This document shows positions 241-16,923 of a stretch of DNA of 64,000 bases, in pieces (the stretch's first letter is position 1; each line of letters begins with the position of its first letter). Source of the DNA: Elioraea tepidiphila DSM 17972 (GTDB lineage Bacteria > Pseudomonadota > Alphaproteobacteria > Acetobacterales > Acetobacteraceae); assembly GCF_000378465.1 (NCBI RefSeq), contig NZ_KB899931.1:1-64000 (forward strand). Direction: 5' to 3'. Under the pieces are notes generated by a model. It was not told the origin of the DNA. It was given only the letters and a program-made list of their open reading frames with translations, and ran no database searches. Position numbers and translations under genes: made by a program.

Positions 241-275
241 TCACCACGGTCCCGCACGAAACTCCTGACAGTCCC
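1..275 (+). mobile_element. Right end of an IS256-family insertion sequence
   Basis: The transposase stop overlaps the start of a terminal sequence running from about 238 to 275. Read on the minus strand from the outer edge it begins GGGACTGTCAGGAGTTTCGT, the kind of end seen in IS256 relatives. The outer end is placed at about 275, and ATACACTG (276-283) would be the candidate 8-bp target duplication. The left end lies outside the window, so neither the inverted-repeat partner nor the duplication can be verified. The element stops about 40 bp from the Argonaute stop codon. Confidence 0.65.
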
Positions 276-318
276 ATACACTGGGCCACAATAGGCGTAG
301 GGCCGACGGATGCACCAA

Positions 319-1836: not shown

Positions 1837-3245
1837 CCAGAGGCCTCCGTGTCGAAGTCCTCCGCGTCGGTGTCATCCTGCTCATCGAAATCAGAGTCCT
1901 CGTCGTCCGGCTCTTCGGGATCCGCGGGCTCGTCCGCGACCTTGAGGTCGTTTGGCATCGTGCGCGTAGCTACGAGTTCGAGAAGGCGGCCGTTGAGCAC
2001 GAGGCTCTCCGCGCCGTCGAGCGGGATGGTGATCTCGTCAGCTTCGTCTGCGAGGAAGGCGCAGAAAGCCTGCTGGAGCTGTCGCCACTGCGCATTCCAC
2101 CAGTTCTTGCAGAATCGGCGACGGATGCCAGACGTGCGCTTCGGGTCTTGAATGGCGGTTTGGCCGTCTTCAGAGAAGCATACGTAGGGCCTGAAGCGGA
2201 CAACGGCCGGCGGGCCGAGCACGACGTTGACCTTCATCGCGAGGTGCCAATGCACCTTCATCTTCTCGCTACGACCAACGACGTTCTTGTATGTCCGTCG
2301 ACCGGTCGCATCAGAATAGAAGACCTTGTCGTTCGGTACCAGACCGGAAGGAAAGAAGAAGCTCGGAGCCGAAGAGGTCTCAAAGAGCTTGAGCCCCCGA
2401 GCCTCCAGATACCGCTCGATGTGCCTTCGCAGAAGGTAGGAGGTCATCTTGCGGGCCTCGTCCTTTCGGGGCGCTGTGACGTCCCGAGTCGAGCCATCGA
2501 GGAACTCGGCCAACGGGACGACGGCCCGGAGGGTCAGGCTGAAAGACGGCGGCAGAGACTCCTGGAAGCGGGAGGCGTGCGCGAAGGACAACACGAGCCG
2601 ATGAAACATCTGGTGCGGGACGCCCGTCTCCTTCAGAGCCGGACCGATCTTGGCCTTGTCTCCCTTGTACTCGTAGAACGCGATTGCCGCGGGCAGAGAG
2701 CGCACCGGAACGAGGTTTGTCAGGATCGGCTCCGGTTTCTCCTCGACCGTCGTCGCCGTTCGGGTGATCGTCGTACGCCACTTCTCGAACTCGGCCGTTA
2801 GGTCGCCGGGTACCCGAGGAACTCTCGCTGCATCGAGCGTATCCAGAAGCTCGATCAGCTTCGCGCCCCACCCTTGATTGAAGTCAATCCCGTTCAGCGT
2901 GTGCACCTGAATAGGGAAGTCGCCGAAGGGCGTGTCGTCGATGCGGACCGGGATGATGAACGACGGATCATCCAACGTCTTCCGCATCGTGTCAGCGACG
3001 GACAACTCGTTTCGGACGCCCGTCCTCCGTGGGTCGATGCTCGCGCGCGATACCACGTAAATCACCTTGATCGCATGGTGCCGAAGCGCTTCTTCGATCG
3101 AGCTCCAGAAGGGCGTGCCGCCCTTAAGGTCGAACAGGTCGGCCCAGACCCGGTATCCGTGCCCGGTTAGTCGAGCGCCAAGCCAGCGCACGAACTCATT
3201 GTCGTCTGGCGTGGCGTGAGTGATGAAGATCGTGTCGCGGTGCAT
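1833..3245 (-). CDS. TIR-APAZ NADase effector of a SPARTA system
   Basis: The 470-residue protein starts with a TIR domain (about residues 1-140): it opens MHRDTIFITHATPDD, has GYRVWADLF near residue 30 and FWSSIEEAL near 46-54. The motif GVRNELSVA carries Glu80, which lines up with the catalytic glutamate reported for other SPARTA TIR domains. The rest is an APAZ region that would pair with the short Argonaute encoded next. In characterised SPARTA, guide-directed DNA recognition makes the complex oligomerise and the TIR domain deplete NAD(P)+, killing the infected or plasmid-bearing cell. The tail is extremely acidic: 19 of the last 34 residues are Asp or Glu. A GTG at 3296 would add 17 residues, but the ATG at 3245 sits right before the TIR domain as in relatives and was preferred. 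Confidence 0.92.
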   Translation of the reverse strand: MHRDTIFITHATPDDNEFVRWLGARLTGHGYRVWADLFDLKGGTPFWSSIEEALRHHAIKVIYVVSRASIDPRRTGVRNELSVADTMRKTLDDPSFIIPVRIDDTPFGDFPIQVHTLNGIDFNQGWGAKLIELLDTLDAARVPRVPGDLTAEFEKWRTTITRTATTVEEKPEPILTNLVPVRSLPAAIAFYEYKGDKAKIGPALKETGVPHQMFHRLVLSFAHASRFQESLPPSFSLTLRAVVPLAEFLDGSTRDVTAPRKDEARKMTSYLLRRHIERYLEARGLKLFETSSAPSFFFPSGLVPNDKVFYSDATGRRTYKNVVGRSEKMKVHWHLAMKVNVVLGPPAVVRFRPYVCFSEDGQTAIQDPKRTSGIRRRFCKNWWNAQWRQLQQAFCAFLADEADEITIPLDGAESLVLNGRLLELVATRTMPNDLKVADEPADPEEPDDEDSDFDEQDDTDAEDFDTEASG

Positions 3246-3353
3246 TCGGGCGCTCGAATCGTAGACGTTGCTGATGTTACCCAATAGCGACACCACCCCG
3301 CACGGTGCTTCCAGTTTCTCCGAGTGCTGCCTCGGTTAGGGAAACCCAGTCAT

Positions 3354-3447
3354 AATCCGATCGACGCCCAATCCTGACGCAGCACCCCGACCCCAAAGCG
3401 CGCCACCCCCCGGCGGCCCGAAACGCCTCGCCGCTGCGCGGCCGGAA
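3354..3447 (+). repeat. Diverged direct repeat, copy A
   Basis: This segment aligns to 3797-3894 along its whole length. Both share ATCCTGACGCAGC followed by GCCCCG or ACCCCG, then a C-rich stretch, and end with CGCTGCGCGGCCGG or CGCTCCGCGGCCG. Identity is roughly 70% by eye. Direct repeats of this kind could be duplicated upstream regions or remnants of an element. Confidence 0.55.
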
Positions 3448-3796
3448 AGAGCGATTGGGGCTGACCCAACTAGCGGATCTTGGCGTGTCCTTTGGGGTGT
3501 AGAGGCAGCCCTAGCCTGGCGCAGAGGGTCTCGCGCAGCTTGCGATCAAGAATGCGCTGGATGACGACCAGCGCGGACGGACGGCGCCGCGCAGCCCAAG
3601 CGCCTGACGTCTGCCCGGCACCGCCGTGATCATGGCCTGCAGCCGCCCCCATACTCACGAAACCGATGAATATGATCGGCGCGATCCCGCATAGTCACGG
3701 CAACCACGAACAGCGAAGCGCCACCAGCGGCCCTGGAACGGGCCGGCGATCGCGGCTGGCGCCGGATCGTCAGGCAGAGAGCTGGGCAGGGTGACA

Positions 3797-3894
3797 CGAT
3801 CAACGTCCGATCCTGACGCAGCGCCCCGCTACACTCCGCGCGCCTCACCCCGGTACCCCGGCCGCCCCTCTCCGCTCCGCGGCCGATAAAGGAA
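3797..3894 (+). repeat. Diverged direct repeat, copy B
   Basis: Second copy of the repeat at 3354-3447, about 440 bases downstream in the same orientation. The best-conserved core is CCTGACGCAGC. It ends shortly before the AT-richer sequence preceding the MBL-fold gene. Confidence 0.55.
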
Positions 3895-3963
3895 TACAAG
3901 CATAAAGTCAGTAAACCAGTGGGGGAGGACGCTCCTCCCCCCACACCCCCCTGCATCACACGC

Positions 3964-4920
3964 TCAGAGCTGCCACGGCCGCGGCACGAACGCATACCCC
4001 TCGCCCTGACGCACGATCCGCCCGAAGGCCGGCCACGGCAGATGCACCCCGCCCACCAGCACACGATCCGTCGCCAGCATGTCCAGGGTGCGCAACCGCG
4101 ACTCCACCGCCGCCTCCGGATCGACATCGATCCCCAAGCGCCAGCGCGGGTTGGCCAACTGAATCACCGTCTGATGCGTCACATCGCCCCAGACCAGCAT
4201 CTGCTCGGCACCGCTGCTGATCCGATACGACACATGGCCCGGCGTGTGCCCGATCGCCGGCATGGTCGTGATGCCCGGCACCACCTCCACCTCGCGCGTC
4301 GCATCGAAGGTGCGGATCCGATCGGCATACGGCCCGATCGCACGCCGCCCGGCCTGGATGAACCGCTGACCCTGCGGCACCCGGCTCTCCATCGCCGGAT
4401 CGGTCCAGAACCCATGGTCCTGCGCCGACACCACCACCTCGGCGTGCGGGAAGGCGCGCCCGCCGTCGCCGTCCACCAGCCCCAGCGCATGCTCGGGGTG
4501 GATATGCGTCAGCAGCACCGTGTCCACCTGCTCCGGCCGATAGCCGGAGGCGGCGAAGGCCTCGCGCATCCGCCCGGTGCCGGGGAAGAACGCATGCTCG
4601 CCGCCGGCATCGATCAGCACCAGGTTGCGGCCGGTGTTCACCAGATAGACACCGACCGGCTGGTGCAGGAACCCCTCGACGAAATAGGCATGCTCGCGCA
4701 ACCGGCGCACCACCGCCTCGTCGTAGTCGCGGAAGAAGCGCGGCGCGTTCGCCTCGGGCATGCGCATGCCGCCATCGAGCAGCGCCGTGATCTCGGCCTC
4801 GCCGACGCGGATGCGGTGGAACCCGGGCGCGGCCGTGCCGGCAGGCGGCGGCGCGGCCGTGGCGGTGGCCGACACGGCGAGCAGCGGGGCGGTCGCGAGC
4901 AGGGAGCGGCGGTCGATCAT
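3964..4920 (-). CDS. MBL-fold metallo-hydrolase with an export signal
   Basis: The 318-residue product begins MIDRRSLLATAPLLAVSATA, a signal peptide with an R-R pair, so it is probably exported, possibly by Tat. The metallo-beta-lactamase fold shows in VDTVLLTHIHPEH (about 132-143), GHTPGH, GDVTH and a late GGVHLPWP. The first metal motif is HxHxEH instead of the common HxHxDH, an uncommon but conservative change. Substrate is unknown; relatives include lactonase- and glyoxalase-like hydrolases. A longer frame reaches back to 5040, but the ATG at 4920 has a purine-rich AAAGGGG upstream and opens directly into the signal peptide. No operon partner is close. Confidence 0.85.
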   Translation of the reverse strand: MIDRRSLLATAPLLAVSATATAAPPPAGTAAPGFHRIRVGEAEITALLDGGMRMPEANAPRFFRDYDEAVVRRLREHAYFVEGFLHQPVGVYLVNTGRNLVLIDAGGEHAFFPGTGRMREAFAASGYRPEQVDTVLLTHIHPEHALGLVDGDGGRAFPHAEVVVSAQDHGFWTDPAMESRVPQGQRFIQAGRRAIGPYADRIRTFDATREVEVVPGITTMPAIGHTPGHVSYRISSGAEQMLVWGDVTHQTVIQLANPRWRLGIDVDPEAAVESRLRTLDMLATDRVLVGGVHLPWPAFGRIVRQGEGYAFVPRPWQL

Positions 4921-5076
4921 GGTGCTGTACCCCTTTCCGACGATGCGCAGGGCTGGCCCGTCGCGGCGCCCCGACGCGCGGCCGAACCATAGCGCACTCG
5001 GCCGGGCCGTCAGCGCCGCGGCCGCGACCGCTCGGTTCACCGATGTGTGCGTGCGCGCGGTGTTGCAGAGCGCAGC

Positions 5077-6081
5077 TCAGGCCGCGACGGCGTCGGCCCC
5101 TTCGTGATGCTCGAGTGCCGCGCGCAGCAGCGCCACCAGACGCTGACGCAGCGACGGCGGTTCTAGGATCTCCACCGAAGTGCCCCAGGTGAAGACGTGC
5201 CAGGACATCTCCTGCGCCCCGCCGGCCCGGAACCGCACCACCAGGCGGCCTTCATCGTCGCGCTCCGCCGTCTGGGAGGGGTGGAAACGCCACTGCGCCG
5301 CCTCGTCGGCGGTCGCGGCGTCGAAGCGGAGGGCCACGTCGAACGGCTCCTCCTGCCAGGTGCCGAAGGCGCGCGCGGCGAACTCCTCCAGGCGGAAATC
5401 GGCACGGCGGACGAAGGGCGTGTTGCCCAGGTCGAGCATGCCGATCCGGTCCAGCCGATAGAGCTTGGGGTCGTCCCAGGGCTCGGCGGCGGCGACCAGC
5501 AGCGGGCGGCTGCCGTACAGCATGCCGTAGGGGTGCACCTCGGTGACATAAGGCTCGCCGGACCGGCGCGAGCGGTACTCCATCGTCACCGGCAGGCAGG
5601 AGATGATGGCGCGGCGCAGCTTGGTCAGCAGACCCGGCGGCAGGACCGGGCGCGGGCCCGGGCGCAGCGCCGTGCCCTCGGCCTCGGTCAGCACTTCGAG
5701 ATCGGGTTCGATCCGGCGCAGATGATCCGGCCGGGCGGTCGCGCGCAGCTTCTGCGTCGCCGAGATCACGAGGTCGGCGCGCTCGCGCAGCCCCCGGCGC
5801 GTCAGCGCGGCCGCGGCGGCGTCGAGCTCGGCGAGTTCCTCGGCCGAGACCGCCACCAGCCCGCCCAGCGTGCCGGCGGGCAGGCGCCAGCGCCGCACCC
5901 GTTCGCCGTCATCGCAGCGTTCGAACTGCGGGAAGACGCGCGCCACGGCGTCGCGCATGCGCTCTGCCGTGCGGCGCGCCACCCCGAATTCACGCTGGAC
6001 ATCGGCGAGCGAAAGTCCCTCGCGCGTGCCTTGGAAGGCGAGAGCGAGGCGCAGGATCTGTTCGAGCTTCTGATAATGCAT
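5077..6081 (-). CDS. WYL-domain transcriptional regulator
   Basis: The 334-residue protein has an N-terminal winged helix-turn-helix (about residues 1-60, with LSLADVQREFGVARRTAERMR as recognition region) and a WYL ligand-sensing domain in the middle (VTMEYRSRRSG, VHPYGMLYGSRPLLVAA, YRLDRI). A WCX-like C-terminal domain follows. WYL regulators commonly sense nucleic acid or a nucleotide and are enriched next to phage-defence and DNA-repair genes. Here it is followed upstream on the same strand by a double-AAA+ ATPase and then, divergently, by YhaO/YhaN-like genes, so it is the likely regulator of that cluster. The ATG at 6081 was chosen because the HTH starts right after it; the inverted repeat at 6102-6117 lies just upstream. 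Confidence 0.88.
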   Translation of the reverse strand: MHYQKLEQILRLALAFQGTREGLSLADVQREFGVARRTAERMRDAVARVFPQFERCDDGERVRRWRLPAGTLGGLVAVSAEELAELDAAAAALTRRGLRERADLVISATQKLRATARPDHLRRIEPDLEVLTEAEGTALRPGPRPVLPPGLLTKLRRAIISCLPVTMEYRSRRSGEPYVTEVHPYGMLYGSRPLLVAAAEPWDDPKLYRLDRIGMLDLGNTPFVRRADFRLEEFAARAFGTWQEEPFDVALRFDAATADEAAQWRFHPSQTAERDDEGRLVVRFRAGGAQEMSWHVFTWGTSVEILEPPSLRQRLVALLRAALEHHEGADAVAA

Positions 6082-6101
6082 CCCCCAACCCGAGCTTTCC
6101 C

Positions 6102-6117
6102 GTTCATGGTGATGAAC
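6102..6117. promoter_or_regulatory. Inverted repeat GTTCAT-N4-ATGAAC upstream of the WYL gene
   Basis: A perfect 6-bp dyad lies 20 bases ahead of the WYL regulator start, in the 76-base gap after the AAA+ ATPase gene. The position suits an autoregulatory operator. On the minus strand TTGACG (6146-6151) could be a -35 box, but no clear -10 was seen. Function is inferred from position and symmetry only. Confidence 0.45.
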
Positions 6118-6157
6118 AAAGCCGAGACGCGCGCGTGAAAGGATCGTCAAAAACGCA

Positions 6158-8227
6158 TTAATCTCGTGGCCGGAAGCCCACCGGAGCGGTCGCGCCCGGG
6201 CGTGCGGCGGCCTCCTCAGCCAAGAGTTGCAGCAGCGCCTCCGGATCCTCGATCCGGCCGAGCAGCCGCGCCTTGCGCGCAACCAACGCGAAATCGGCCG
6301 GAACCAGCGGTGGAAGGTCGGCAAGGCCGGACGGAGCGGCGGCGGCGAAGAACCGCTCGAACGCCGCCCGCGCCTGCTCCGGCCGCAGCGCGTCGAAGCG
6401 CACCTTCACCAGGAACCGCCGCAGACACGCGGGGTCGAGCCGTTCGGGTAGGTTGGTTGTGCAGGCGAAGGGCAGCGGGTGGTGCTCCATCCAGGTGAGG
6501 AGTTCGTTCACCTGGGTCACCTCCCAGGACTGCGCCGCCCCGCGCCGGTCGGCGAGCAAGCCGTCGGCTTCGTCGATGATCAGGAAGCGGTTCTCTTCGG
6601 CCGCCTCCTGGAACGCCGCGGCGATCGCCTGCTCGCTGCCGCCGACCCAGCGCGACAGCAGGTCCGAGGCCCGCTTCACCATCGGGTCGAGGCCCAGGCG
6701 CTCGGCCAGGTCGCGCGCGAAGGCGCTCTTGCCCGTGCCGGGCGGACCGGACAGCAGCAGCGACACCGCTCGCGGCGCGTCCGGTGCGGCGAGCCGGTCC
6801 GCGAGCGCCGCGAGATCGGTGTCGGCATTGGCGAGGCTCGCATCGAAGACGCGTTCCGGCGCCGATGGCTGCAACGGCAGGCGCCCGCCGCCCATCGCCT
6901 TGGCGACCGCGAGCACGCCGCGCCGCACCGCCTCCGGCCCGCCGCCGGTCAGCGCCGCGGCCGAGACCGCGGCCGCCGCCACTGCCGGCGGGGCGGCCAC
7001 GTCGCGGGCGAGCCGCGCGACCTCCGGCGGCGGCATCACCACGCCGTGGCGGGCCAGTTCGCGCACCCACAGCCGCTCGCGCACCGGCAGGTCAGGCACG
7101 CGCAGCTCGATCGCGAAGGTCATGCGCCGGATCACCGCCGGGCCGAGCGGCCCGAGCGCATTGGTCGTCCACAACACCGGCACCGGCGTGGTTTCCAGCG
7201 TGCGCAAGAGCGAGGCGCGCCCGCCCCCCTGGCCGTTCAGCAGCCCCGCGAGCCCCTGGTCGAACAGGTCTTCCGCCTCGTCGAACAGCAGCAGCGCGGG
7301 CGAGCCGCCGGCGAGCAGGCGCTGGGCGAGGCGAAGCTCCGCGAGCCGCTCGCTCCGCCCGGGCTCGTGCCCGTCCTCCGCGACCTCGCCCACCGCATAG
7401 AGCGGCGCGCCCACCGCGGCGGCGAGGGTCTTGCAGAACTCGGTCTTGCCCGTGCCGGGCGGGCCGTAGAGCAGCACATGCGTGCCCGGCCGGCGGGCGC
7501 GCAGCGCGCCGGCCAGCACCTCGACGGCATGGCGCGCCGACTCGCCGAGATGGGCGAAATCCTCCATCGCCAGGCTGGCGGCGAGCGGCCGGCCGAGCAG
7601 CGCCTCGCCGGCGACCTGCGGGGCCGAGGGCGGAATGCCGAGCGCGTCCGAGAGCTGGCGCTTCAGCCGCTCCAGCACGATCAGTTCGCCGTCGCCGTCC
7701 ACGGTCAGCAGCCCGGCCGCGCGCAGCGTGCCGGTCGGCGCGAGGCGCCGCTCGACCGTCGCCTGCGGCAGGCCGGTCAGCAGCGCGATCATCGGCGCGT
7801 CGGCCGAGAGCCGCATCGCGCCCCCCATGGCGTCCGACACCATGTCCCAGAGCCGCTCCACCGGCCGGTGCAGGCGGTAGCGCACGGCGAGGCCGAGGAT
7901 CGCCGCCTCCGCCTCGTCAAGCCCGACCGCGCGGGTGACGGCGTTCAGCCGGAGCGTGATGGCGCTGACCGCACGGCGGGCCTTGGCGGTGCGCGCCTCG
8001 ATGCGGCGCTGGATCAGCTTCCAGGCGGCGGCGTCGAGCGCGCCTTCGGCGAACAGTTCGTCCTGGCGCGGATCGGGCTCGCGCGCGGCGCGTGGGGCGA
8101 GGCCGAGCGCGTCCTGGTAGCGGGTGAGCCAGGCGGCGACGGCGGTCGCGCGGCGCGAGCGGCGGGGCACCTGGGCCAGCGCGTTCTTGGCGTACTCCAG
8201 GGCGATGGTCTGTTCGCCGGCGTCCAT
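6158..8227 (-). CDS. Double-AAA+ ATPase of the WYL/YhaON cluster
   Basis: The 689-residue protein has an alpha-helical N-terminal region (about 1-240) and two AAA+ modules. The first has Walker A GPPGTGKTEF near residue 256 and Walker B LLLFDEAEDLF. The second has Walker A GPPGTGKSAF near residue 493, Walker B FLIIDEADGLL and an arginine-rich sensor region. Both modules look intact, so this should be an active remodelling ATPase; the substrate is unknown. GGGAGAG stands just before the ATG at 8227. It lies divergent from the YhaO-like gene and codirectional with the WYL regulator, suggesting one functional unit. Alternatives such as an FtsH- or Spastin-like function are not supported: no protease or membrane segment is visible. 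Confidence 0.85.
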   Translation of the reverse strand: MDAGEQTIALEYAKNALAQVPRRSRRATAVAAWLTRYQDALGLAPRAAREPDPRQDELFAEGALDAAAWKLIQRRIEARTAKARRAVSAITLRLNAVTRAVGLDEAEAAILGLAVRYRLHRPVERLWDMVSDAMGGAMRLSADAPMIALLTGLPQATVERRLAPTGTLRAAGLLTVDGDGELIVLERLKRQLSDALGIPPSAPQVAGEALLGRPLAASLAMEDFAHLGESARHAVEVLAGALRARRPGTHVLLYGPPGTGKTEFCKTLAAAVGAPLYAVGEVAEDGHEPGRSERLAELRLAQRLLAGGSPALLLFDEAEDLFDQGLAGLLNGQGGGRASLLRTLETTPVPVLWTTNALGPLGPAVIRRMTFAIELRVPDLPVRERLWVRELARHGVVMPPPEVARLARDVAAPPAVAAAAVSAAALTGGGPEAVRRGVLAVAKAMGGGRLPLQPSAPERVFDASLANADTDLAALADRLAAPDAPRAVSLLLSGPPGTGKSAFARDLAERLGLDPMVKRASDLLSRWVGGSEQAIAAAFQEAAEENRFLIIDEADGLLADRRGAAQSWEVTQVNELLTWMEHHPLPFACTTNLPERLDPACLRRFLVKVRFDALRPEQARAAFERFFAAAAPSGLADLPPLVPADFALVARKARLLGRIEDPEALLQLLAEEAAARPGATAPVGFRPRD

Positions 8228-8277
8228 GCGGTCTCTCCCGTACCCGTTCCGTTCTCGCCTCGGGCGACCGTAGGGAG

Positions 8278-8306
8278 CTGACGCGTCAGAACCGGACGTA
8301 TGTCCG
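8278..8306. promoter_or_regulatory. Two palindromes in the divergent AAA+/YhaO control region
   Basis: CTGACGCGTCAG (8278-8289) is a perfect 12-bp palindrome and CGGAC-GTAT-GTCCG (8293-8306) is a perfect dyad, only 3 bases apart. They sit in the 130-base gap between the divergent starts at 8227 and 8358, where a shared operator would be expected. The WYL regulator is the obvious candidate binder, but the half-sites do not match the dyad at 6102-6117, so this is a guess. Confidence 0.5.
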
Positions 8307-8357
8307 ATCCCGTCGTCTTTGCCGACGCGGCCGGGTTCAGGCAGGCTTGCGCGGCCC

Positions 8358-9521
8358 ATGCCCGTGCGACTCCTTCACAGCTCCGACCTTCAGCTCGGCC
8401 GCGGCTTCGCCTTCGCCCCGCCGGAGACGGCGGCGGTGCTGGCGGCGGAGCGATTCGACGTGCTCGCTCGGCTGGCGCAGGCCGCGCGCGCGGCCGGTGC
8501 ACCGCGCCTGCTGATCGCCGGCGACGTGTTCGACAGCACCCAGCTCTCCGACCACACGCTGGACCGGGTGCTCGCGCGCATGGCGGCCGCTGCCGACCTC
8601 GTCTGGCACCTGCTGCCCGGCAACCACGACCCGCACCAACCCGGTGGCTTGTGGGAGCGGCTCGGTCGCAAGGGCTGGCCGCCGAACGTCCGCGCGCATC
8701 TCGACGCCGAGGCGGTTCCCCTCGATCCCGCGCCGGGCGAGCGGCCCGCCGTGCTGCTGCCGAGCCCGCTCGGCCATCGCCGCGTGCCGGGTGATCCGAC
8801 CGCTTGGATGGACCAGGCCGCGACGCCCGACGGCGCCCTGCGCATTGGCCTTGCGCACGGTGCGGTCGCGGGGTTCGGCGCCGAGGAGGGGGCGGAGGTG
8901 AACCCGATCGCGCCCGACCGCGCCGACCGCGCGGGACTCGCCTATCTCGCGCTCGGCGACTGGCACCGCACGATCCGCGTCGGCCCGGCCACCTGGTACA
9001 GCGGCACGCCGGAGCCGGAGCGGTTCCGGATCGATCCCGACGGCGATGGCACACGCTGCGGCGGCGGTTTCGCGCTCGCGGTCACGATCGACGGGCCCGG
9101 CGCGGTGCGGGTCGAGCGTGTGCCGACGGGGCGCTTCATCTGGCACCTCGCCGAGCCGGTGCTGGCGGAGGCCGCGGAGATCGACGCGCTCGCGGATCGT
9201 TTCCTCGCGATGCCGGACGCCGCCGACATCGTGCTGCGCCTCGCCCCGCGCGGCGCGCTGACGCTCGCAGGGCGCGAGCGCTTCCGCGACCGCATCGAGG
9301 AGACGCTCGCCGCCCGGCTGCGCTGGCTCGATCTCGACCTTGCCGGCCTGGAGGTGCGGCCCGAGGATGCCGAACTCGCCGCGATCGACCTGGAGGGCGC
9401 GGTGCGCAGCGCCGCCGACCGGCTGGCGGCGCTCGCGCGCGATCCGGCGTCGCCGCAGGCCGAGGCGGCGCGGCGCGCGCTGGTCGAGCTGTGGCTCATG
9501 CGCTCTCTCGCCAGGGGCTGA
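8358..9521 (+). CDS. YhaO-like DNA repair exonuclease (SbcD-type metallophosphoesterase)
   Basis: The 387-residue protein starts MPVRLLHSSDLQLG and shows calcineurin-like phosphoesterase motifs in order: D10-L-Q12, GDVFD near 55-59, GNHD at 88-91, then HGAV and GDWHR. These bind the two metals of Mre11/SbcD-type nucleases. The first motif is DxQ instead of the usual DxH, a variation I recall in some members of this group. It is followed 4 bases later by a YhaN-like ATPase, so the two form an SbcCD-like pair. The ATG at 8358 was chosen over an in-frame start 39 bases upstream because the nuclease domain begins immediately after it. Confidence 0.85.
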   Translation: MPVRLLHSSDLQLGRGFAFAPPETAAVLAAERFDVLARLAQAARAAGAPRLLIAGDVFDSTQLSDHTLDRVLARMAAAADLVWHLLPGNHDPHQPGGLWERLGRKGWPPNVRAHLDAEAVPLDPAPGERPAVLLPSPLGHRRVPGDPTAWMDQAATPDGALRIGLAHGAVAGFGAEEGAEVNPIAPDRADRAGLAYLALGDWHRTIRVGPATWYSGTPEPERFRIDPDGDGTRCGGGFALAVTIDGPGAVRVERVPTGRFIWHLAEPVLAEAAEIDALADRFLAMPDAADIVLRLAPRGALTLAGRERFRDRIEETLAARLRWLDLDLAGLEVRPEDAELAAIDLEGAVRSAADRLAALARDPASPQAEAARRALVELWLMRSLARG

Positions 9522-9525
9522 CGCG

Positions 9526-11919
9526 ATGAGGCTCGTCGCCGTTGAGGTCGAGGAGGTGCGCCGCTTCGCAGGCCGCTGGCGCGTCGGCCCTTTCGCGCCG
9601 GGGCTCAATGTGCTCGCGGCCGAGAACGAGGCCGGCAAGTCCACACTGCTTGCGGCGATTCAAGCGGCGATCTTCCTGCCGCATCGCAACGCGGCTGAGA
9701 CGCTGCGCCCGGTTGGTGGCGGCATCCCCAGAGTGCGGCTGGAACTGGCCGACAGTGCTGGGCAGTGGGTGATCTTCAAGCACTTCGCCGGCCGGACCGG
9801 GCGGGCGGAGGTGATCACGCCGGCGGGCGAGACGCTCACCGGCGAAGAGGCCGAACAGGCAATCCGCCGGCTGTTCGGTCTCGCCGCGGCGCGCGGCCGC
9901 GGCGAGACCGAACGCGGTGTCTGGGGCGCACTTTGGGTCGAACAGGGGCATTCCTTCGATCTCGCCCGGCTCGATGACCCGGCGCGCCGGACTCTGCGGA
10001 GCGCGCTGGAAGCCGAAGTCGGCACGGTCACTGGGGCGGCCGGCATCGCCCGGCTGCGCGCCGCGGTCGCCCACGAACTCGCCGCGTTCCAGTCGCCCGG
10101 CGGTCGTGAGACGCGAGGCCGACTGCGCACGGCACGCGACCGGCGCGACGAGCTGGACCGCGAGATCACCGACTTGGGGCAACGCCGCCGCGACGTCGAA
10201 ACCGATCTCGGCCGGCTCGCCGAGCTGCGCGACCAGCGCGCCCTGCGACTGGAAGCCCGCACCGAGCAGGCGTTCGAGCGCAAGCTCGACGAGGCGCGCA
10301 CCAAGCTCGGAGAACTCGACCGCGCGAAGGAACGTCGCGAGGCGGCCCTCCATGCAGCCCAGACCGCCGCGATCTTCGCCCAGGCGGCGGTACGGGAGCG
10401 GGATCAGCGCCAGCGCGACCGCGACGAATCGGGCAAGGCCGAGCAGGAAGCCGTCCGCGCCCGTGAAGCGGCGCAGGAAGCAACACAGGAGGCAGTAGCC
10501 GCGGAGGAAGAGGCCCGTCGCGCGGCGCTGCGGGCGGCGGCAACGACGGCGGTCGCTGCGGCACGCCAATGCCGCGACCGCGTCGATGTGCTGGCCAAGG
10601 TGGCCGACCGGCTACGGGCTGCCGGCGAGGCCGAGGCGCGGGCGCGACAGGCGCAGCCTACCGCGACGGCAAACGGCGCTGCGGCCGCGCTGGTGGTGCT
10701 GGCTGCTGTCCTCGCGGCGGTACCAGGCTTCGTGCCGGGGCTGGCGGAGGCGTGGTGGTGGGGTGTCGCGGCCGCCGTCGTTGCTCTGGCCGGTGCCGCG
10801 TTCCTATTCGCCCGCGCGCTCGGCCGACGCGCTGCGGCCCAGCGAGCACTCGCCACCACCGCAGCCGAGCGCGCCGCCGCGCAAGCCGCGGCCGAGGCCC
10901 TCGCTCCGGGCACGGAGATCGCCGCCGCCCTCGCCGGGGCCGAGGCGGAGGCGCAGCAGGCCGAGGCGCGCGCTCGGGAACTCGGCGACGAGGCCGGGCT
11001 TGCGGCGGAAGCGGTAGCCCCCCCGTCGGACGAGGCCAACGCGGCCCGGGCTGCGGCAGATCGAGCGGCACGCGAAGCGGAACGACGCTCGGCCGATGCC
11101 GAGGCCAAGGCAGAGGCCGCACGGCGCCTTGCCGACCGCCTCGGCGAGGCGCGCGCGCGCGAACCGGATGATGACCTCGAAGAACGGGTCCGGCGTCTCG
11201 ACGAGGATGCGAAGCGGCGGCAGGACGACGCGGCGGCGCTCGCCGTGCCGACGGCCGAGGAACGAGCGGCGATCAAGGCCGAGATCGCTCGTCTCGAAGC
11301 CGCTCGGAACACGGAGCGTGCCGAGGACCAGCGGATTGCCGACGAGATCGCCCGGATTGAAGGCGGGCTCGCCCGGATCGAGGCCGAGGGCCTCGACGAG
11401 CACATCGCCGCGGCCGAGGGCGAACGCGACCGTCTCCACCGCGAGCTCGACCAGCTCGAAACGCGCCGCGCCGCGCTCAATCTGCTCGACGAAACGTTGC
11501 GGCAGGCGGAAGAAGCGGCGACAGCCTCCTGGCTTGAACCAGTGACACGCACGCTCGCGCCGTGGCTGGACCAGCTGATTCCTGGCGCGCGCGCCACCCT
11601 CGACGAGGCGACGCTCCAGCCGGCCGGGCTCTCGCGCAGCGGCCGCGACGAAACCTTCGCCATCCTCTCGCGGGGCACGCAAGAGCAGATCGCGGTGCTG
11701 GTCCGCCTCGCCTTCGCCGAGATCCTGCGGCGGCAGGGACGGCCCGTCCCGGTGATCCTGGACGACGCGCTGGTGTTCTCCGACGATGACCGGATCGAAC
11801 GCATGTTCGACATCCTGAGCGCGGCGGCGGAGCGGATGCAGATCGTGGTGCTGACCTGCCGCACGGGCCTCTTTGCGCGGCTCGGTGGGCACAGGCTCGC
11901 ACTCGAGCACGTGTCATGA
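9526..11919 (+). CDS. YhaN-like SbcC-type ATPase with a membrane hairpin
   Basis: The 797-residue protein has an N-terminal ABC/SMC half with Walker A ENEAGKSTLL near residues 33-42 and a C-terminal half with the signature LSRGTQEQIAVL near 715 and Walker B VILDDALVFSDDD near 744. Between them lies a long, Ala/Glu/Arg-rich coiled coil. Instead of the SbcC/Rad50 zinc hook (CxxC), the coil is interrupted at about residues 383-431 by two hydrophobic segments with a W-W-W turn, which look like a membrane hairpin. That layout is typical of the YhaN group (COG4717). The partner nuclease is encoded just upstream. The next gene starts inside its stop codon (ATGA at 11916-11919). Confidence 0.85.
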   Translation: MRLVAVEVEEVRRFAGRWRVGPFAPGLNVLAAENEAGKSTLLAAIQAAIFLPHRNAAETLRPVGGGIPRVRLELADSAGQWVIFKHFAGRTGRAEVITPAGETLTGEEAEQAIRRLFGLAAARGRGETERGVWGALWVEQGHSFDLARLDDPARRTLRSALEAEVGTVTGAAGIARLRAAVAHELAAFQSPGGRETRGRLRTARDRRDELDREITDLGQRRRDVETDLGRLAELRDQRALRLEARTEQAFERKLDEARTKLGELDRAKERREAALHAAQTAAIFAQAAVRERDQRQRDRDESGKAEQEAVRAREAAQEATQEAVAAEEEARRAALRAAATTAVAAARQCRDRVDVLAKVADRLRAAGEAEARARQAQPTATANGAAAALVVLAAVLAAVPGFVPGLAEAWWWGVAAAVVALAGAAFLFARALGRRAAAQRALATTAAERAAAQAAAEALAPGTEIAAALAGAEAEAQQAEARARELGDEAGLAAEAVAPPSDEANAARAAADRAAREAERRSADAEAKAEAARRLADRLGEARAREPDDDLEERVRRLDEDAKRRQDDAAALAVPTAEERAAIKAEIARLEAARNTERAEDQRIADEIARIEGGLARIEAEGLDEHIAAAEGERDRLHRELDQLETRRAALNLLDETLRQAEEAATASWLEPVTRTLAPWLDQLIPGARATLDEATLQPAGLSRSGRDETFAILSRGTQEQIAVLVRLAFAEILRRQGRPVPVILDDALVFSDDDRIERMFDILSAAAERMQIVVLTCRTGLFARLGGHRLALEHVS

Positions 11920-13241
11920 CGCGCGGCCTGCCACCCTGGCTGGTCGCCGCAATGTTCGTGCTCGCCGCCTGCGCGCCGCTGATCCTGGCCCTCGCCTCCG
12001 GCGAGCCGCCCGAGGCGGTGCAGGCGGAGCTCGGCATCGGGCTCGGGCTCGCGTCCCTCGCGCTGATGCTGTTGCAGTTCGCGCATTCCGGCCGGCTGGA
12101 GACGATCGCCGGCCGGGTCGGCATCGACTGGACCATGCGGCTCCACCGCTCCGCGGGGATCGCCCTCGCCGCGATGGTGCTGCTGCACCCGGCCGCGTTC
12201 CTCGCGCCGCTGCTGCTGACGCAGCCCGGCCGCGCGCTCGACGGCCTGGTGCGCATGTTCGGCGCCGAGCGGATGCAGAGCGGCGTGATCGCGCTCGCGC
12301 TGCTGCTCGTCGTTGTGGCGGCCTCGCTCGCGCGCGCCCGTGTCGGCCTCGCCTATCAGCGCTGGCGGGCGCTGCACGCGGCACTCGGCCTCGCGGCCGC
12401 CGCCTTCGCGGTGCATCACGCGCTGCGCGTCGGGCTCTACAGCGAGGCCGCGCCGCTGCGCGGGTTCTGGCTCGGCGGGCTCGCGCTGGCGGCCGCGGCA
12501 TTGGTGTGGACCTGGGTCCTCAAGCCGCTGCGCGACGGCCGCGCGGGCTGGCGCGTCGCCGCCGTCGCCCCGCTCGGCCCCAACTACTGGGAGGTCGCGC
12601 TGGAGCGCCCTTCGCGCGCGCCGCTTCCCTTCGCCGCCGGCCAGTTCGCCTGGCTCGCCTTCGGCCGCCGCGCGCCCTGGGACGACAACCCGTTCTCGAT
12701 CGCCTCCGCGCCCGGCGATCCGCGGCTCGCCTTCGTCATCCGCGAGGCCGGGGATCTCACGCGCACGATCGGATCGCTGCCGATCGGATCGGACGTGCGG
12801 GTCGATGCGCCGCACGGCGCCTTCGTGCTCGACCCGCGCGAGCGGCGCGCCGTGCTGCTGATCGCCGGCGGAGCCGGGATCGCGCCGATCCTGTCGCTCT
12901 GGCGCGACCTCGCCAGCCGGCCGGATGCCGGCGCGGTCCGGCTCGTCTATGGCGCCTGGACGGCCGAACGCCTGCTCTACCGCGAGGAGCTCACGCGCAC
13001 GGCCGCCGAGAAGGGTTTCGGCCTCTTCCTCCGCGTGGACGAGGGGCCGCTCTGCGCGGGCGCGACGCGCGGCATCCTCGACGAGGCGATCCTGCGCGCG
13101 GCGATGGACGGCCTCGATCCGCACCGCACGGTGGCGATGGTCTGCGGACCGACACCGATGATGCTGGCGGTCGCGGCGAGCCTGGAGCGGCTCGGCCTGC
13201 CGCCCGCCGCGATCCGCTACGAGCGGTTCGACTATGACTGA
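11916..13241 (+). CDS. Ferric-reductase-like transmembrane flavoprotein
   Basis: The 441-residue product has about six membrane helices in the first 220 residues. These contain paired histidines (LHRSAGIALAAMVLLH and LHAALGLAAAAFAVHH) suited to bind two haems. An FAD-binding barrel (DDNPFSIASAPG) and a NAD-binding fold (LLIAGGAGIAPILSLW, VCGPTPMM) follow. This matches the ferric reductase / NADPH oxidase superfamily, which moves electrons from NAD(P)H across the membrane. It overlaps the YhaN-like gene by 4 bases, so it is probably cotranslated with the nuclease module, an unusual partner. A small hydrophobic gene overlaps its 3' end. Confidence 0.8.
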   Translation: MTRGLPPWLVAAMFVLAACAPLILALASGEPPEAVQAELGIGLGLASLALMLLQFAHSGRLETIAGRVGIDWTMRLHRSAGIALAAMVLLHPAAFLAPLLLTQPGRALDGLVRMFGAERMQSGVIALALLLVVVAASLARARVGLAYQRWRALHAALGLAAAAFAVHHALRVGLYSEAAPLRGFWLGGLALAAAALVWTWVLKPLRDGRAGWRVAAVAPLGPNYWEVALERPSRAPLPFAAGQFAWLAFGRRAPWDDNPFSIASAPGDPRLAFVIREAGDLTRTIGSLPIGSDVRVDAPHGAFVLDPRERRAVLLIAGGAGIAPILSLWRDLASRPDAGAVRLVYGAWTAERLLYREELTRTAAEKGFGLFLRVDEGPLCAGATRGILDEAILRAAMDGLDPHRTVAMVCGPTPMMLAVAASLERLGLPPAAIRYERFDYD

Positions 13242-13353
13242 GCGCGCGCCGATGCCGCGCGTGGAGCGGCGCATGCGCAACGGCGTGCGGCTGCTGCTCG
13301 GCGCGGTGTGGCTTGCGGTCCTGCTGTTCGCGCTCCGCGCGCTTGTTCTGTAG
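13234..13353 (+). CDS. Small single-pass membrane protein, unrecognised
   Basis: ATG at 13234 opens a 39-codon frame that overlaps the end of the flavoprotein gene by 8 bases and stops at TAG 13351-13353. The first half is basic (ERRMRNGVR) and the second half is a single hydrophobic helix (LLLGAVWLAVLLFALRALVL). Overlap and composition suggest a real small subunit for the membrane flavoprotein, but no family was recognised and the frame could be chance. Confidence 0.45.
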   Translation: MTERAPMPRVERRMRNGVRLLLGAVWLAVLLFALRALVL

Positions 13354-13357
13354 CGCG

Positions 13358-13645
13358 TCAGCGCCGCACGTGATTCGCCTCCAGCCACGCGATGATGGCC
13401 GCGCGCTTGCCGGCGTCCTCGGCGTAGTGGGTCTTGAGGAAGTCGTCCAGCGCGGCCTGCCGATCCGCCTGCGCGAGGTCGACGAAGCGGCGCATGAACC
13501 GCGTCGGCGTGCGGTGGCACGAGGCGCAGGCCTCCTGGTAGGCGGTCTCGCCCGGATCGGTCGCGCGCGGCTGCTGACCCATCGCCAGCGTCGAGACGGG
13601 CGCGGTCAGCGGCAGGGCGAGCAGGGCGGCGAGCACGATGCACAT
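13358..13645 (-). CDS. Small periplasmic c-type cytochrome
   Basis: The 95-residue product has a signal peptide (MCIVLAALLALPLTAPVSTLA) and one haem-binding motif, CASCH, near residues 40-44. A short helical region ends in IAAWLEANHV, like small class-I-type cytochromes. A Met ligand is not obvious after the motif, so the axial ligand is unsure. It is convergent with the ferric-reductase-like gene, with 4 bases between stops, and divergent from the ammonia-lyase gene. An electron-transfer link to the flavoprotein is possible but unproven. Confidence 0.75.
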   Translation of the reverse strand: MCIVLAALLALPLTAPVSTLAMGQQPRATDPGETAYQEACASCHRTPTRFMRRFVDLAQADRQAALDDFLKTHYAEDAGKRAAIIAWLEANHVRR

Positions 13646-13715
13646 GGACTATCTCCCTCCGGCGTTTCGCGGCAGTCTGACGCCTCCATCCGCCGTGCTC
13701 GTTGACCGAGGTCAA

Positions 13716-14894
13716 GTGACGCTCCTCCCGACCCTGCCGTTCCGCGTCCATCTCAATGCCGCCAAGGGGCGCGCCGGCGCACCGGTGCTCGACGAGGCGG
13801 GCTTCCGCGCCGCGCGTGGCGCGATCACCTGCTGGCCCGGATACGCGGCGACCCCGCTCGTCGATCTGCCGGGCCTGGCACGCACCCTCGGCATCGGCGC
13901 GCTGCGCTGGAAGGACGAGGGAGGGCGGTTCGGGCTCGGCAGCTTCAAGGCGCTCGGCGGGGCCTATGCGGTGGCGCGCCATCTGATCCGCACGCTCGCC
14001 GCGCGCGGGATCACGGCGACCGACGCGGACCTCGCCGCCGGGCGCCACGCCGCCCTGACCGGCGACATCACCGTCACCTGCGCGACCGACGGCAATCACG
14101 GCCGCTCGGTCGCCTGGGGGGCGCAGCGCTTCCACTGCCGCGCGGTGATCTACATCCACGAGACCGTCAGTGACGGCCGGGCGGCGGCGATCGCCCGCTT
14201 CGGTGCCGAGGTGCGGCGCGTGCCGGGCACCTACGACGACGCGGTGCGCCGCGCCGCCGAGGACGCGGCGGCGAATGGCTGGACCGTGGTCTCCGACACC
14301 TCCTATCCCGGCTACACCGACATCCCGCGCGACGTGATGCAGGGCTACCGCGTGATGGCGGACGAGGCCTTCGCGCAATGGACCGGTCCCGCACCGACCC
14401 ACCTGTTCGTGCAGGGCGGCGTCGGCGGCGTGGCCGCCGCGGTCGCCGCGCAGGCGGCGCTGCACTTCGGCGCGGACGGGCCGCGTCTGGTCGTGGTCGA
14501 GCCCGACCGGTTCGACTGCCTCTACCGCAGCGCGGTGGCGGGGACGCCCACCCCGTCGCCGCCCGGCCCCGACACGCTCATGGCCGGGCTCGCCTGCGGC
14601 GAGGTGTCGATCCTTGCCTTCGACGAACTCCTCTACCGCGCCGATGCCTTCATGGCCGTGCCCGACGAGGCGGTCGCGCCGGCGATGCGGGCGCTCGCGC
14701 GCGGGCAGGACGGCGATCCGGGCGTGGTCGCGGGCGAGAGCGCGGTCGCGGGGCTGATCGGTCTCGCGCTCGCGCTTGGCGATCCGACCGCCGCACCGCT
14801 CGCCCTTGATGCCTCCTCCCGCGTTCTGCTGTTCGGCACCGAGGGTGCGACCGATCCCGAACTCTACGCCCGGCTGGTCGGCGCGCCCGCTTGA
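13716..14894 (+). CDS. dpaL: Diaminopropionate ammonia-lyase
   Basis: The 392-residue protein is a fold-type II PLP enzyme. GGRFGLGSFKALGGAYA contains the PLP-binding lysine in the form typical of diaminopropionate ammonia-lyase (YgeX), and TCATDGNHGRSVAWGA and FVQGGVGGVAAAVA are the phosphate- and cofactor-binding loops. The enzyme converts 2,3-diaminopropionate to pyruvate and ammonia. The start is set at GTG 13716, with GAGG 6 bases upstream; GTG at 13695 is an alternative. A Bug-type receptor gene follows 59 bases downstream, hinting at use of an imported organic compound. Confidence 0.88.
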   Translation: MTLLPTLPFRVHLNAAKGRAGAPVLDEAGFRAARGAITCWPGYAATPLVDLPGLARTLGIGALRWKDEGGRFGLGSFKALGGAYAVARHLIRTLAARGITATDADLAAGRHAALTGDITVTCATDGNHGRSVAWGAQRFHCRAVIYIHETVSDGRAAAIARFGAEVRRVPGTYDDAVRRAAEDAAANGWTVVSDTSYPGYTDIPRDVMQGYRVMADEAFAQWTGPAPTHLFVQGGVGGVAAAVAAQAALHFGADGPRLVVVEPDRFDCLYRSAVAGTPTPSPPGPDTLMAGLACGEVSILAFDELLYRADAFMAVPDEAVAPAMRALARGQDGDPGVVAGESAVAGLIGLALALGDPTAAPLALDASSRVLLFGTEGATDPELYARLVGAPA

Positions 14895-14953
14895 CCGGGG
14901 TCGCGCGGCACCCCAGCCTCCAGGCAACGACAACAGCCCAGGGACCGTCCGCC

Positions 14954-15922
14954 ATGCTCACCCGTCGCACCCTGCTCGCGGCCACTCCGCTCGCGGCCCT
15001 GCCCGCCGCCGCGCGCGCGCAGGAATGGCCGAACCAGCCGATCCGCATGATCGTCCCCTTCGCCGCGGGCGGCCCGACCGACATCCCCGCGCGGCTGATC
15101 GCGGAGGAGATGAGCAAGCGCCTGCCGCAGCGCGTGGTGGTGGAGAACCGCACCGGCGCGGGCGCGCTGGTCGGCACCGAGGTGGTCGCCAAGGCGCCGA
15201 AGGACGGCCACACGATCCTCTACAGCACGGTCGCGCAGGCGGTGATGCCGTCGCTGTTCCAGCGCCTCACCTTCGACCCGGTGGCCGACTTCATCCCGGT
15301 CTCCCTGGTCGCGGTCGTGCCGATGATCATGATCGTCAACAAGGACCTGCCGGTGAACTCGCTCGCCGAGCTGATCGCGCTCCTGAAATCCAAGCCGGGC
15401 GAGTTCGACTACGGCTCGTCGGGCAACGGCGGCGCGGTGCATCTCGCCTCCGAACTGTTCCTGTCGATGAGCGGAACGAAGGCCAACCACGTTCCCTATC
15501 GCGGCTCCTCGGCGCTACTGCCCGACCTGATCGCCGGACGGATCGCGTTCAGCGTCGATGTCGCGGCAAGCGCGCTCGGCTACGTGCGCGACGGCCGTGT
15601 GAAGGGGCTCGCGATCTCCTCGAAGCAGCGCTCCAGCCTCGCCCCCGACCTGCCCACCTTCGACGAGGCTGGGGTGCCGGGTTACGAGGCCTACACCTGG
15701 CACATGGTGCATGTGCCCGCGGGCACACCGCAGGCGATCGTGACGCGGCTCAATCGGGTGGTGAACGAGTCCGCGGCGGTGCCCGAGGTGAAGAACCGCC
15801 TGCTCGAACTCACCGCCGAGGTGATCACGGACTCGACACCCGAGAGCGCGCGCGCGTTCCTGATCGCCGAGCGCGACAAGTGGGGCAAGGTGATCCGCGA
15901 GGCCGGGATCACGGTGAACTGA
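14954..15922 (+). CDS. Bug-family (tripartite tricarboxylate transporter) solute receptor
   Basis: A 322-residue protein opening MLTRRTLLAATPLAALPAAARAQ, an export signal with twin arginines. The mature part shows Bug/TctC signatures: PIRMIVPFAAGGPTDIPARL, VVVENRTGAGALVGTEVVA, HVPYRGSSALLPDLIAGRI and a late LPTFDEAGVPG. Such proteins bind organic acids in the periplasm. No TctA/TctB membrane genes are nearby, as is usual for the expanded Bug families of Acetobacteraceae and Burkholderiales. The quinone oxidoreductase gene starts at its stop codon (TGATG), so they share an operon. Confidence 0.9.
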   Translation: MLTRRTLLAATPLAALPAAARAQEWPNQPIRMIVPFAAGGPTDIPARLIAEEMSKRLPQRVVVENRTGAGALVGTEVVAKAPKDGHTILYSTVAQAVMPSLFQRLTFDPVADFIPVSLVAVVPMIMIVNKDLPVNSLAELIALLKSKPGEFDYGSSGNGGAVHLASELFLSMSGTKANHVPYRGSSALLPDLIAGRIAFSVDVAASALGYVRDGRVKGLAISSKQRSSLAPDLPTFDEAGVPGYEAYTWHMVHVPAGTPQAIVTRLNRVVNESAAVPEVKNRLLELTAEVITDSTPESARAFLIAERDKWGKVIREAGITVN

Positions 15923-16923
15923 TGCCCGTGCCCGACACGATGCGTCATGTCGCCTGCGCGGGGCATGGCGGGCCGGAGGTGATGAAGATCGTCTCCGGCC
16001 CGGTGCCCGAGCCGGGGCCGGGCGAGATCCTGATCGAGGTGCATGCCGCCGGCGTGAACCGTCCCGACATCCAGCAGCGCCGCGGCGCCTATCCGCCGCC
16101 GCCCGGGGCCTCGCCGATCCTGGGGCTGGAGGCGGCGGGCACGGTCGCGGCGCTCGGCGCGGGGGTGGAAGGCTGGAAGGTCGGCGATCCGGTCACCGCG
16201 CTCTGCAACGGCGGCGGCTACGCCGAGTATGTCGCGGTGCCCGCGCCGCAATGCCTGCCCCCGCCCGAGGGCTACGACCATCTGCACGCGGCCGCCCTGC
16301 CCGAGACCTATTTCACCGTCTGGGCCAACCTGTTCCAGCGCGGCCGGCTCGCGAAGGGCGAGACGGTGCTGATCCACGGTGGCTCCTCCGGGATCGGCAC
16401 GACCGCGATCCAGCTCGCGCGCGAGTTCGGCGCGCGGGTGTTCGCCACCGCCGGCAACGTGGACAAGTGCACCGCCTGCCTGCGCCTCGGCGCCGAGGCG
16501 GCGATCGACTACAACGCGCAGGATTTCGTCGAGGAGGTGAAGCGGCTGACGGATGGGCGCGGCGTCGATGTGGTGCTCGACATGGTCGGCGGCGACTACA
16601 TCGCGCGCAACCTCCGCTGTCTCGCGCTTGAAGGCCGGCTCGTGCAGATCGCCTTCCTGCAAGGCTCGAAGACGCGCGATTTCGACTTCCTGCCGGTGAT
16701 GACCAAGCGGCTGACGATCACCGGCAGCACCATGCGCCCGCGCACGACGGAGCAGAAGGGCGCGATCGCTGCGGAGCTGCGCGCGCGGGTCTGGCCGGTG
16801 CTGTCCGCGGGTCGCTGCAGGCCGGTGATCTACGGCACCTATGCGCTCGAGGACGTTGCCGATGCGCATCGCCTGATGGAGTCGAGCGCGCATATCGGCA
16901 AGATCATGCTGACGCTGCGCTGA
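15922..16923 (+). CDS. NAD(P)H quinone oxidoreductase (PIG3/zeta-crystallin type MDR)
   Basis: The 333-residue medium-chain reductase has the GroES-like N-terminal part (VHAAGVNRPDIQQRRGAYPP) and a Rossmann NADP fold with HGGSSGIGTTAIQLA near residue 155, the TP53I3-like form. It lacks the zinc-ligand cysteines of alcohol dehydrogenases. It would reduce quinones or enones with NADPH. The ATG at 15922 overlaps the stop of the Bug receptor gene. Confidence 0.9.
   Translation: MPVPDTMRHVACAGHGGPEVMKIVSGPVPEPGPGEILIEVHAAGVNRPDIQQRRGAYPPPPGASPILGLEAAGTVAALGAGVEGWKVGDPVTALCNGGGYAEYVAVPAPQCLPPPEGYDHLHAAALPETYFTVWANLFQRGRLAKGETVLIHGGSSGIGTTAIQLAREFGARVFATAGNVDKCTACLRLGAEAAIDYNAQDFVEEVKRLTDGRGVDVVLDMVGGDYIARNLRCLALEGRLVQIAFLQGSKTRDFDFLPVMTKRLTITGSTMRPRTTEQKGAIAAELRARVWPVLSAGRCRPVIYGTYALEDVADAHRLMESSAHIGKIMLTLR

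Follow-up and report, generated by a model that had tools for sequence, protein, structure and literature searches.

A DriD-like WYL regulator and a tandem AAA ATPase with a DriD-type operator beside a divergent YhaO-YhaN pair in Elioraea tepidiphila

Four adjacent genes that place a WYL-domain regulator and a tandem AAA ATPase next to an Mre11-like and a Rad50-like protein raise the question of whether they constitute one conserved module of genome defence or repair, as an earlier note on this DNA had proposed. The genes lie at positions 5077–11919 of a 64,000-nucleotide stretch of Elioraea tepidiphila DSM 17972 (start of contig NZ_KB899931.1), the whole of which is called the window here. 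We find that the AAA-WYL and YhaO-YhaN genes are two separate pairs and that the claim of a module is valid within this genus only. The strongest result concerns the AAA-WYL core and its operator: newly recognized here, the WYL protein is a homologue of DriD, and a DriD-type operator is located halfway between the starts of AAA and YhaO.

All four reading frames are open, and profile matches to every one of the proteins confirmed the families that had been named. The minus strand carries a WYL transcription factor of 334 residues (5077–6081; Pfam E-values of 8.5e-10 and 1.4e-15 for the WYL and WCX domains) and, as the first gene of the AAA-WYL operon, a tandem AAA ATPase of 689 residues (6158–8227; two modules, Pfam AAA E 1.3e-35). 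Divergent from both, on the plus strand, are YhaO, a SbcD/Mre11-like metallophosphoesterase of 387 residues (8358–9521; metallophosphoesterase E 1e-6, and NCBIfam sbcd 9.7e-10, under that model's cut-off), and YhaN, a Rad50/SbcC-like coiled-coil ATPase of 797 residues (9526–11919; SMC_N E 7.3e-9, under Pfam's cut-off). The genes stood as first described and two of their starts were corrected: WYL begins near 6081 rather than 6324, with no overlap with AAA, and the AAA start is most likely 8227 rather than 8359, which leaves a gap of 130 bp between the AAA and YhaO starts.

The relationship of the WYL protein to DriD was evident from a phmmer search of the Protein Data Bank (PDB), in which residues 1–326 matched entry 9pfq with an E-value of 1.4e-61 and 8tp8 likewise at about 1e-61; in the same search PafBC reached only 3.5e-4. 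Entry 9PFQ, like 9PFV, 9PGA and 7TZV, is a structure of DriD, which the published account describes as a WYL activator of the SOS-independent DNA-damage response of Caulobacter crescentus whose activating signal is single-stranded DNA (ssDNA) bound in the WYL domain (PMC12340889). The two proteins are identical at 128 of 326 aligned positions (39%), including the stretch RRTAERMRDAV in the helix-turn-helix, and the full-length architecture of DriD-type activators (winged helix-turn-helix, helical bundle, WYL, WCX) is present in the WYL protein, which is the sole DriD-like protein of its genome at E≤1e-5. By analogy with DriD, it would sense ssDNA and activate transcription. Because its nearest solved relative is a DNA-damage regulator, we consider a DNA-damage response at least as good a first label for the locus as phage defence.

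According to the same source, the DriD target box is ATACGAC-N7-GTCGTAT, the site overlaps the −35 element, bapE and recJ, both encoding nucleases, are among the targets, and the driD promoter is itself bidirectional and carries the box, the divergent operon there comprising an unknown gene and a TonB-dependent transporter (PMC12340889). A first search with the published consensus brought up similar sites ahead of AAA in several loci; we then used a matrix that always omitted the tested group, comparing the stretch upstream of AAA with all other positions of each locus. When the window was scanned with a matrix of 33 training sites, all from outside this genus and its sister genus, the top-scoring position of the 64 kb was the unstranded site at 8281–8301 (ACGCGTCAGAACCGGACGTAT; score 22.07), the centre of which is separated from the starts of AAA and YhaO by 64 and 67 nt, respectively. 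Among 200 random sequences of 64 kb with matching triplet composition, the highest score was 18.4. A site at 34059 (score 13.1) was set aside as being at chance level, with 0.185 sites of at least 13 expected.

The same kind of operator accompanies the AAA-WYL pair elsewhere. We collected 86 AAA loci, or 69 after omission of 13 close relatives from two genera and 4 contig-edge fragments; 13 of these 17 omitted loci were left out of the matrix step. An operator was called upstream of AAA when it scored at least 11 and ranked third or better in its locus. By this rule it was found in 30 of the 43 loci where WYL is no more than 1.7 kb away and in all 3 where the distance is 1.7–8 kb, as compared to 2 of the 23 loci that lack WYL and have flanks of at least 4 kb (Fisher p-value of 1.6e-6 for 30/43 vs 2/23) and 3 of 13 with short flanks. 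Removal of the loci that had seeded the matrix (8 of the 30) left 22 of 35. The other 13 of 43 were counted as misses, among which L098, L106, L206, L264 and the L069–L071 group have a strong site just outside the scanned stretch (L- and G-numbers denote loci and genomes of the comparison set).

Alignment of 35 loci on the operator revealed a preferred promoter geometry. On the AAA side, TANNNT begins at a distance of 19 nt from the operator centre in 10 of the 35 loci, and no other offset, on this side or the other, has it in more than 2 loci; the A at +20 carries 1.25 bits. In the window, a −10-like element of the AAA-WYL promoter, TACGGT, occupies this spacing (8267–8272, minus strand, 19 nt from the centre). 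In 19 of 33 loci, 45–62 nt separate the operator centre from the first in-frame AAA start; in the window this distance is 64. Read from sequence, TANNNT at +19 is the predicted −10 element, with the operator over the −35 position as published for DriD, and this geometry makes activation of AAA-WYL by the operator a well-supported prediction. Operators scoring at least 12 were also located near genes for ADP-ribosylglycohydrolases (L035, L036, L041, L094), PD-(D/E)XK proteins (L039, L097, L098), DUF2779 (L055, L101), HEPN (L207) and TM0106 (L035). At L262 (G391, positions 415–17680), about ten strong DriD-type sites are packed into 18 kb of a 2.1-Mb genome, a cluster that suggests a large local regulon of the AAA-WYL core.

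The ATPase of this core is a Cdc48/Rix7-like tandem ATPase. Both modules retain, in the alignment, the invariant G/K of the P-loops, the DE pairs and the RR pairs (Walker A, Walker B and arginines), and a 74-row profile searched against the PDB retrieved VCP-like ATPases (E 4.9e-50). An AlphaFold model made from 54 rows had a predicted local distance difference test (pLDDT) score of 91.1, and Foldseek matched it to Rix7 (2.1e-16), then NVL and Cdc48, with template-modelling scores of about 0.4–0.5 over the whole chain. The p97 N domain was not found in AAA, the N-terminus of which is a helical, winged-helix region (Pfam WHD variant E 2.4e-6, barely over its cut-off). From its family, the protein would be expected to act as a motor.

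WYL is encoded within 1.7 kb of AAA in 45 of the 86 loci and 43 of the 69, in a range that extends from Alphaproteobacteria to a Fibrobacter contig (L116) and includes one viral contig (L173). Within 10 kb of AAA in the 69 loci we counted UvrD (10), PD-(D/E)XK (8), DUF2779 (8), HEPN (6), ADP-ribosylglycohydrolase (4), SNF2 (4), TM0106 (3) and YhaO or YhaN (3), all of which are lower bounds from profiles built on a few examples; 24 of these 69 non-fragment loci have nuclease, helicase or ADP-ribosylglycohydrolase neighbours. Plasmid annotations likewise place UvrD and PD-(D/E)XK genes beside AAA-WYL, and one plasmid AAA-WYL locus adjoins BREX-2 PglZ and BrxD. One plasmid locus adjoins a DUF2357 gene with an AAA neighbour, which we take to be McrBC-like. 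The survey therefore bore out the suggestion that the regulator-ATPase part is linked to nuclease and defence-type neighbours, often on plasmids. PADLOC, run on the AAA-WYL partners, named no system beyond shared helicase or nuclease domains.

Several of the AAA loci have features of their own. At L053, L056–L064 and L066–L068, from two genera, an AAA of the same family stands amid housekeeping genes with no WYL detected, at a conserved position close to genes for PAP2 and ketopantoate hydroxymethyltransferase and with a 330-residue neighbour that has no Pfam match. At L040, L104 and L212 (Pantoea, Rahnella and Desulfosarcina), AAA-WYL is followed by an unknown gene, a PLD-like gene and a SNF2/DEAD-type helicase, possibly a defence operon of its own. 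L264 (G389) retains AAA-WYL in a genome of about 0.9 Mb.

Whether the two pairs belong together was addressed in 200 evenly sampled genomes of the order, using thresholds of E≤1e-20 for AAA and E≤1e-30 for YhaN. AAA was present in 26 and YhaN in 53 of these genomes, and both in 7, versus 6.9 expected. Three of the seven belong to this genus and have the genes adjacent, an adjacency met nowhere else in the 200; in the other four, the genes are on separate contigs. The proposal of four genes as one conserved unit is thus rejected outside the genus. The earlier note had held that a lack of co-conservation beyond this genome, or a constant core context with housekeeping roles, would speak against a module, and co-occurrence at chance level together with genus-only adjacency realizes part of this; within the genus the locus is regularly present amid metabolic genes. 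Plasmids gave a similar picture: none of the six YhaN plasmid loci examined has an AAA of this family within 10 kb. This sample comprised 14 of 90 AAA and 6 of 115 YhaN plasmid records; query coverage of 80% was reached in 3 of the 90 AAA records, the rest often matching one AAA module only. A partial exception is a Sphingobium plasmid (L043) on which a C-terminal fragment of YhaN lies 5.7 kb from AAA, and on a Croceicoccus plasmid a genuine SbcC/SbcD pair lies ~2.3 kb from AAA. A DNA query with the Rahnella AAA-WYL genes had no match in E. coli genomes.

Inside the genus the arrangement is more than chance. AAA was found in 6 and YhaN in 5 of the 7 genomes, several of which are incomplete; all 3 good assemblies contain both. 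AAA and YhaO diverge in this manner in 5 of the 7 genomes searched, the source genome included, and these 5 have kept the central operator despite a YhaN identity of only ~49%. Two genomes of another genus (L049 and L050) carry AAA-WYL between related flanking genes without YhaO-YhaN.

The YhaO-YhaN pair has a distinctive structure of its own. Profiles of the two proteins matched SbcD (E 4.6e-13) and Rad50 (E 2.8e-13), respectively, in the PDB. At the coiled-coil tip of YhaN, hydropathy identifies two hydrophobic helices (10678–10821, plus strand; residues 385–432, with hydrophobic segments at 385–403 and 414–432), and an AlphaFold model has helices at 247–398 and 410–459 with the turn at the hairpin, where confidence is low (block pLDDT 41–59). 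The protein has two cysteines in total, and the CxxC zinc hook is absent. These findings support the proposal that a membrane hairpin replaces the zinc hook. The hairpin occurred in 3 of 3 genus sequences measured vs 0 of 29 other YhaN loci measured; the latter, taken from the 50 matching genomes of the order outside the genus, encode a longer YhaN with a different tip. The YhaN of Bacillus may have such a hairpin as well. In YhaO the GDxxD, GNHD and later His motifs are conserved, and nuclease activity of the pair would be in keeping with its families. The YhaN stop overlaps the start of a gene for a ferric-reductase-like membrane flavoprotein (11916–13241, plus strand; Pfam Ferric_reduct, FAD_binding_8 and NAD_binding_1) that is at the same place in G101, with DNA similarity at this position also in G202 and G201; from this overlap and shared position, the plus-strand operon probably has three genes, YhaO, YhaN and the flavoprotein. 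A membrane oxidase-like partner for a membrane-anchored Rad50-like protein would be unusual. On two plasmids (L046 and L037), YhaO-YhaN stand beside SIR2 and ATPase genes without AAA-WYL.

On the other side of the AAA-WYL operon lies a SPARTA-type system, in which, as is the mark of this class, a short prokaryotic Argonaute (pAgo; 319–1836, minus strand; PADLOC pAgo_I 2.1e-212) adjoins a TIR-APAZ protein (1833–3296, likely start 3245, minus strand; PADLOC Aga_TIR-PNTD1-PNTD2 1.2e-161). The second-best site of the window, a candidate DriD-type operator upstream of SPARTA, is at 3801–3821 (unstranded; score 15.84, with about 0.04 sites of at least 16 expected by chance per 64 kb). Closer to where SPARTA starts, a weak copy at 3362–3382 (unstranded) scores 9.23, which is not significant alone. 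Each is contained in one arm of an imperfect 31-base direct repeat (3358–3388 and 3797–3827, identical at 27 of 31 positions). Regulatory capture of SPARTA by these operators is possible, as is a chance occurrence of the sites. As a general feature, control of SPARTA by the box was rejected, since 0 of 5 other SPARTA loci, all on plasmids, had an operator scoring at least 11 within 600 bp upstream. The stretch 1–5090 looks newly acquired, because no similar DNA turned up in the other loci of the genus that were compared and because its G+C content is lower (60–63%, up to 68%, in the first 3.5 kb vs 67–79% beyond 5 kb). An AidB-like lactonase of the metallo-beta-lactamase fold is encoded at 3964–4920, between WYL and SPARTA.

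What, then, might the locus do? The explanation that we favor, at somewhat better than even probability, is an ssDNA-triggered AAA-WYL core beside a separately evolving, membrane-tethered Mre11/Rad50-like pair, the two acting on damaged or invading DNA. In this scheme, ssDNA from damage or from an invading genome would bind the WYL domain of the DriD-like factor, which would then bind 8281–8301, overlapping the −35 element of the AAA-WYL promoter, and activate it, raising the levels of the Cdc48-like unfoldase and of the WYL factor itself. Speculatively, the same central operator may act on the divergent YhaO-YhaN-flavoprotein operon as well. The AAA motor would strip or remodel protein-DNA complexes, and membrane-tethered YhaO-YhaN would process DNA ends or hairpins near the membrane. 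A defence role of the locus is plausible; use against phage or plasmid DNA is speculative.

Several observations weigh against this explanation. On the YhaO side, neither the window nor L048 shows a −10 element at the DriD spacing; AAA-WYL may therefore be the only operon that the operator serves, and operator control of YhaO is weakly supported. Outside this genus, co-occurrence of AAA and YhaN is not above chance (both in 4 genomes vs 5.8 expected). The exact RRTx[EQ]R stretch is present in only 28 of 53 WYL proteins, and YhaO, like 6 of 7 relatives, has Gln at the position where the His of the Mre11 DxH motif is expected. In the operator counts, 8 loci seeded the matrix, the loci lack independence and close relatives make up 9 of the 23 WYL-less loci. 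A short degenerate box pattern was not enriched, with 2 occurrences in the window vs 2.15 expected and 84 in the genome vs 62 for the control, and was dropped as uninformative; a narrower pattern was written after the site was known, so that its 0 occurrences in 100 shuffles are not independent evidence.

Other explanations account for parts of the same evidence. That the genes are accidental neighbors, with AAA-WYL regulating only itself and YhaO-YhaN an unrelated divergent pair, would fit the chance-level co-occurrence in the order and the YhaO side lacking a −10 element; retention of arrangement and central operator in five genus genomes despite the divergence of YhaN argues otherwise, and we regard accident as possible but doubtful. 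Rather unlikely, in our estimate, is a housekeeping DNA-damage response of the genus, in which WYL is the local DriD orthologue, AAA and YhaO-YhaN are repair genes and phage play no part: the DriD homology and single copy, the presence in every good genus assembly amid metabolic genes and the two genomes of another genus in which AAA-WYL occupies the corresponding position and YhaO-YhaN is missing all favor it, but AAA-WYL is rare and patchy elsewhere (AAA in 11 of 385 genomes of the class) and occurs on plasmids, on a viral contig and beside BREX-2 genes. We give a similarly low probability to an antiphage or antiplasmid module in the strict sense, in which invader ssDNA switches on YhaO-YhaN and SPARTA. 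The nuclease, helicase and ADP-ribosylglycohydrolase neighbors of AAA, several preceded by operators, the adjoining SPARTA with its candidate operator and the conjugative nature of 65 of the 115 plasmid records with YhaN are consistent with such a module; however, PADLOC matched none of AAA, WYL, YhaO and YhaN to a system other than through shared domains, the 5 SPARTA loci scanned elsewhere lack such an operator and the four-gene set is genus-bound. A broader and still less probable idea, which we consider improbable as it stands, is that AAA-WYL is a portable "ignition" module, an ssDNA sensor and unfoldase that travel together across Proteobacteria and beyond and place their operator before local nuclease, helicase, ADP-ribose or pAgo effectors; here its targets would be a membrane-anchored Mre11/Rad50-like nuclease together with a flavoprotein, and it would have captured the newly arrived SPARTA via the 3362 and 3801 boxes, several defences then being armed at once by free ssDNA.

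What is known of DriD comes from a single organism and a few targets. Should the AAA-WYL core associated with the DriD-type operator work in the way proposed, ssDNA sensing by WYL proteins would be a general switch for nuclease and defence genes that is independent of RecA and LexA, and each AAA-WYL locus would predict its own targets through a readable operator. A widespread, uncharacterized Cdc48-like bacterial ATPase would thereby be assigned a role, open to testing, in the response to DNA damage or viruses, and the locus offers a Rad50-like protein with a predicted membrane hairpin in the zinc hook's place.

Literature searches, chiefly of non-subscription papers, did not find the AAA-WYL pair with a DriD-type box described. 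Among known defence systems, IetAS was rejected, its IetA models matching the AAA modules only and no subtilisin-like protease being present among the neighboring proteins scanned; so was Lamassu, for which LmuB matched mainly the YhaN coiled coil (6.8e-13) with no LmuA among the neighbors scanned, and the labels Gabija and Septu matched only shared ATPase or coiled-coil parts. SPARTA, both protein models of which match at 319–3296, is a neighbor and not part of the four genes. The locus resembles BrxR/CapW in having a WYL regulator beside defence-type genes, but these regulators were not among the PDB matches at E≤0.001, and the available part of their description mentions no AAA partner (PMC9122601). 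Similarity to DriD is closer, extending from the full-length homology and the identical helix-turn-helix stretch to the same type of pseudo-palindromic box with a 7-nt spacer, its location over the −35 element at a fixed distance from the −10 and its position in a divergent promoter. In the part of the DriD account available, however, driD is not described within an AAA operon, and DriD does not activate its own gene (PMC12340889), whereas the −10 evidence here lies on the AAA-WYL side. YhaO-YhaN share with SbcCD and Mre11-Rad50 a metallophosphoesterase and a long-coiled-coil Rad50-like ATPase in one operon, and differ in the hydrophobic tip hairpin in a protein without CxxC and in the Gln of the expected DxH. 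The AAA protein has two modules with both Walker motifs, like Cdc48/p97, Rix7 and NVL, its best PDB matches in sequence and fold, but differs from them in an identity of about 20% and in an N-terminus of winged-helix type in place of the p97 N domain.

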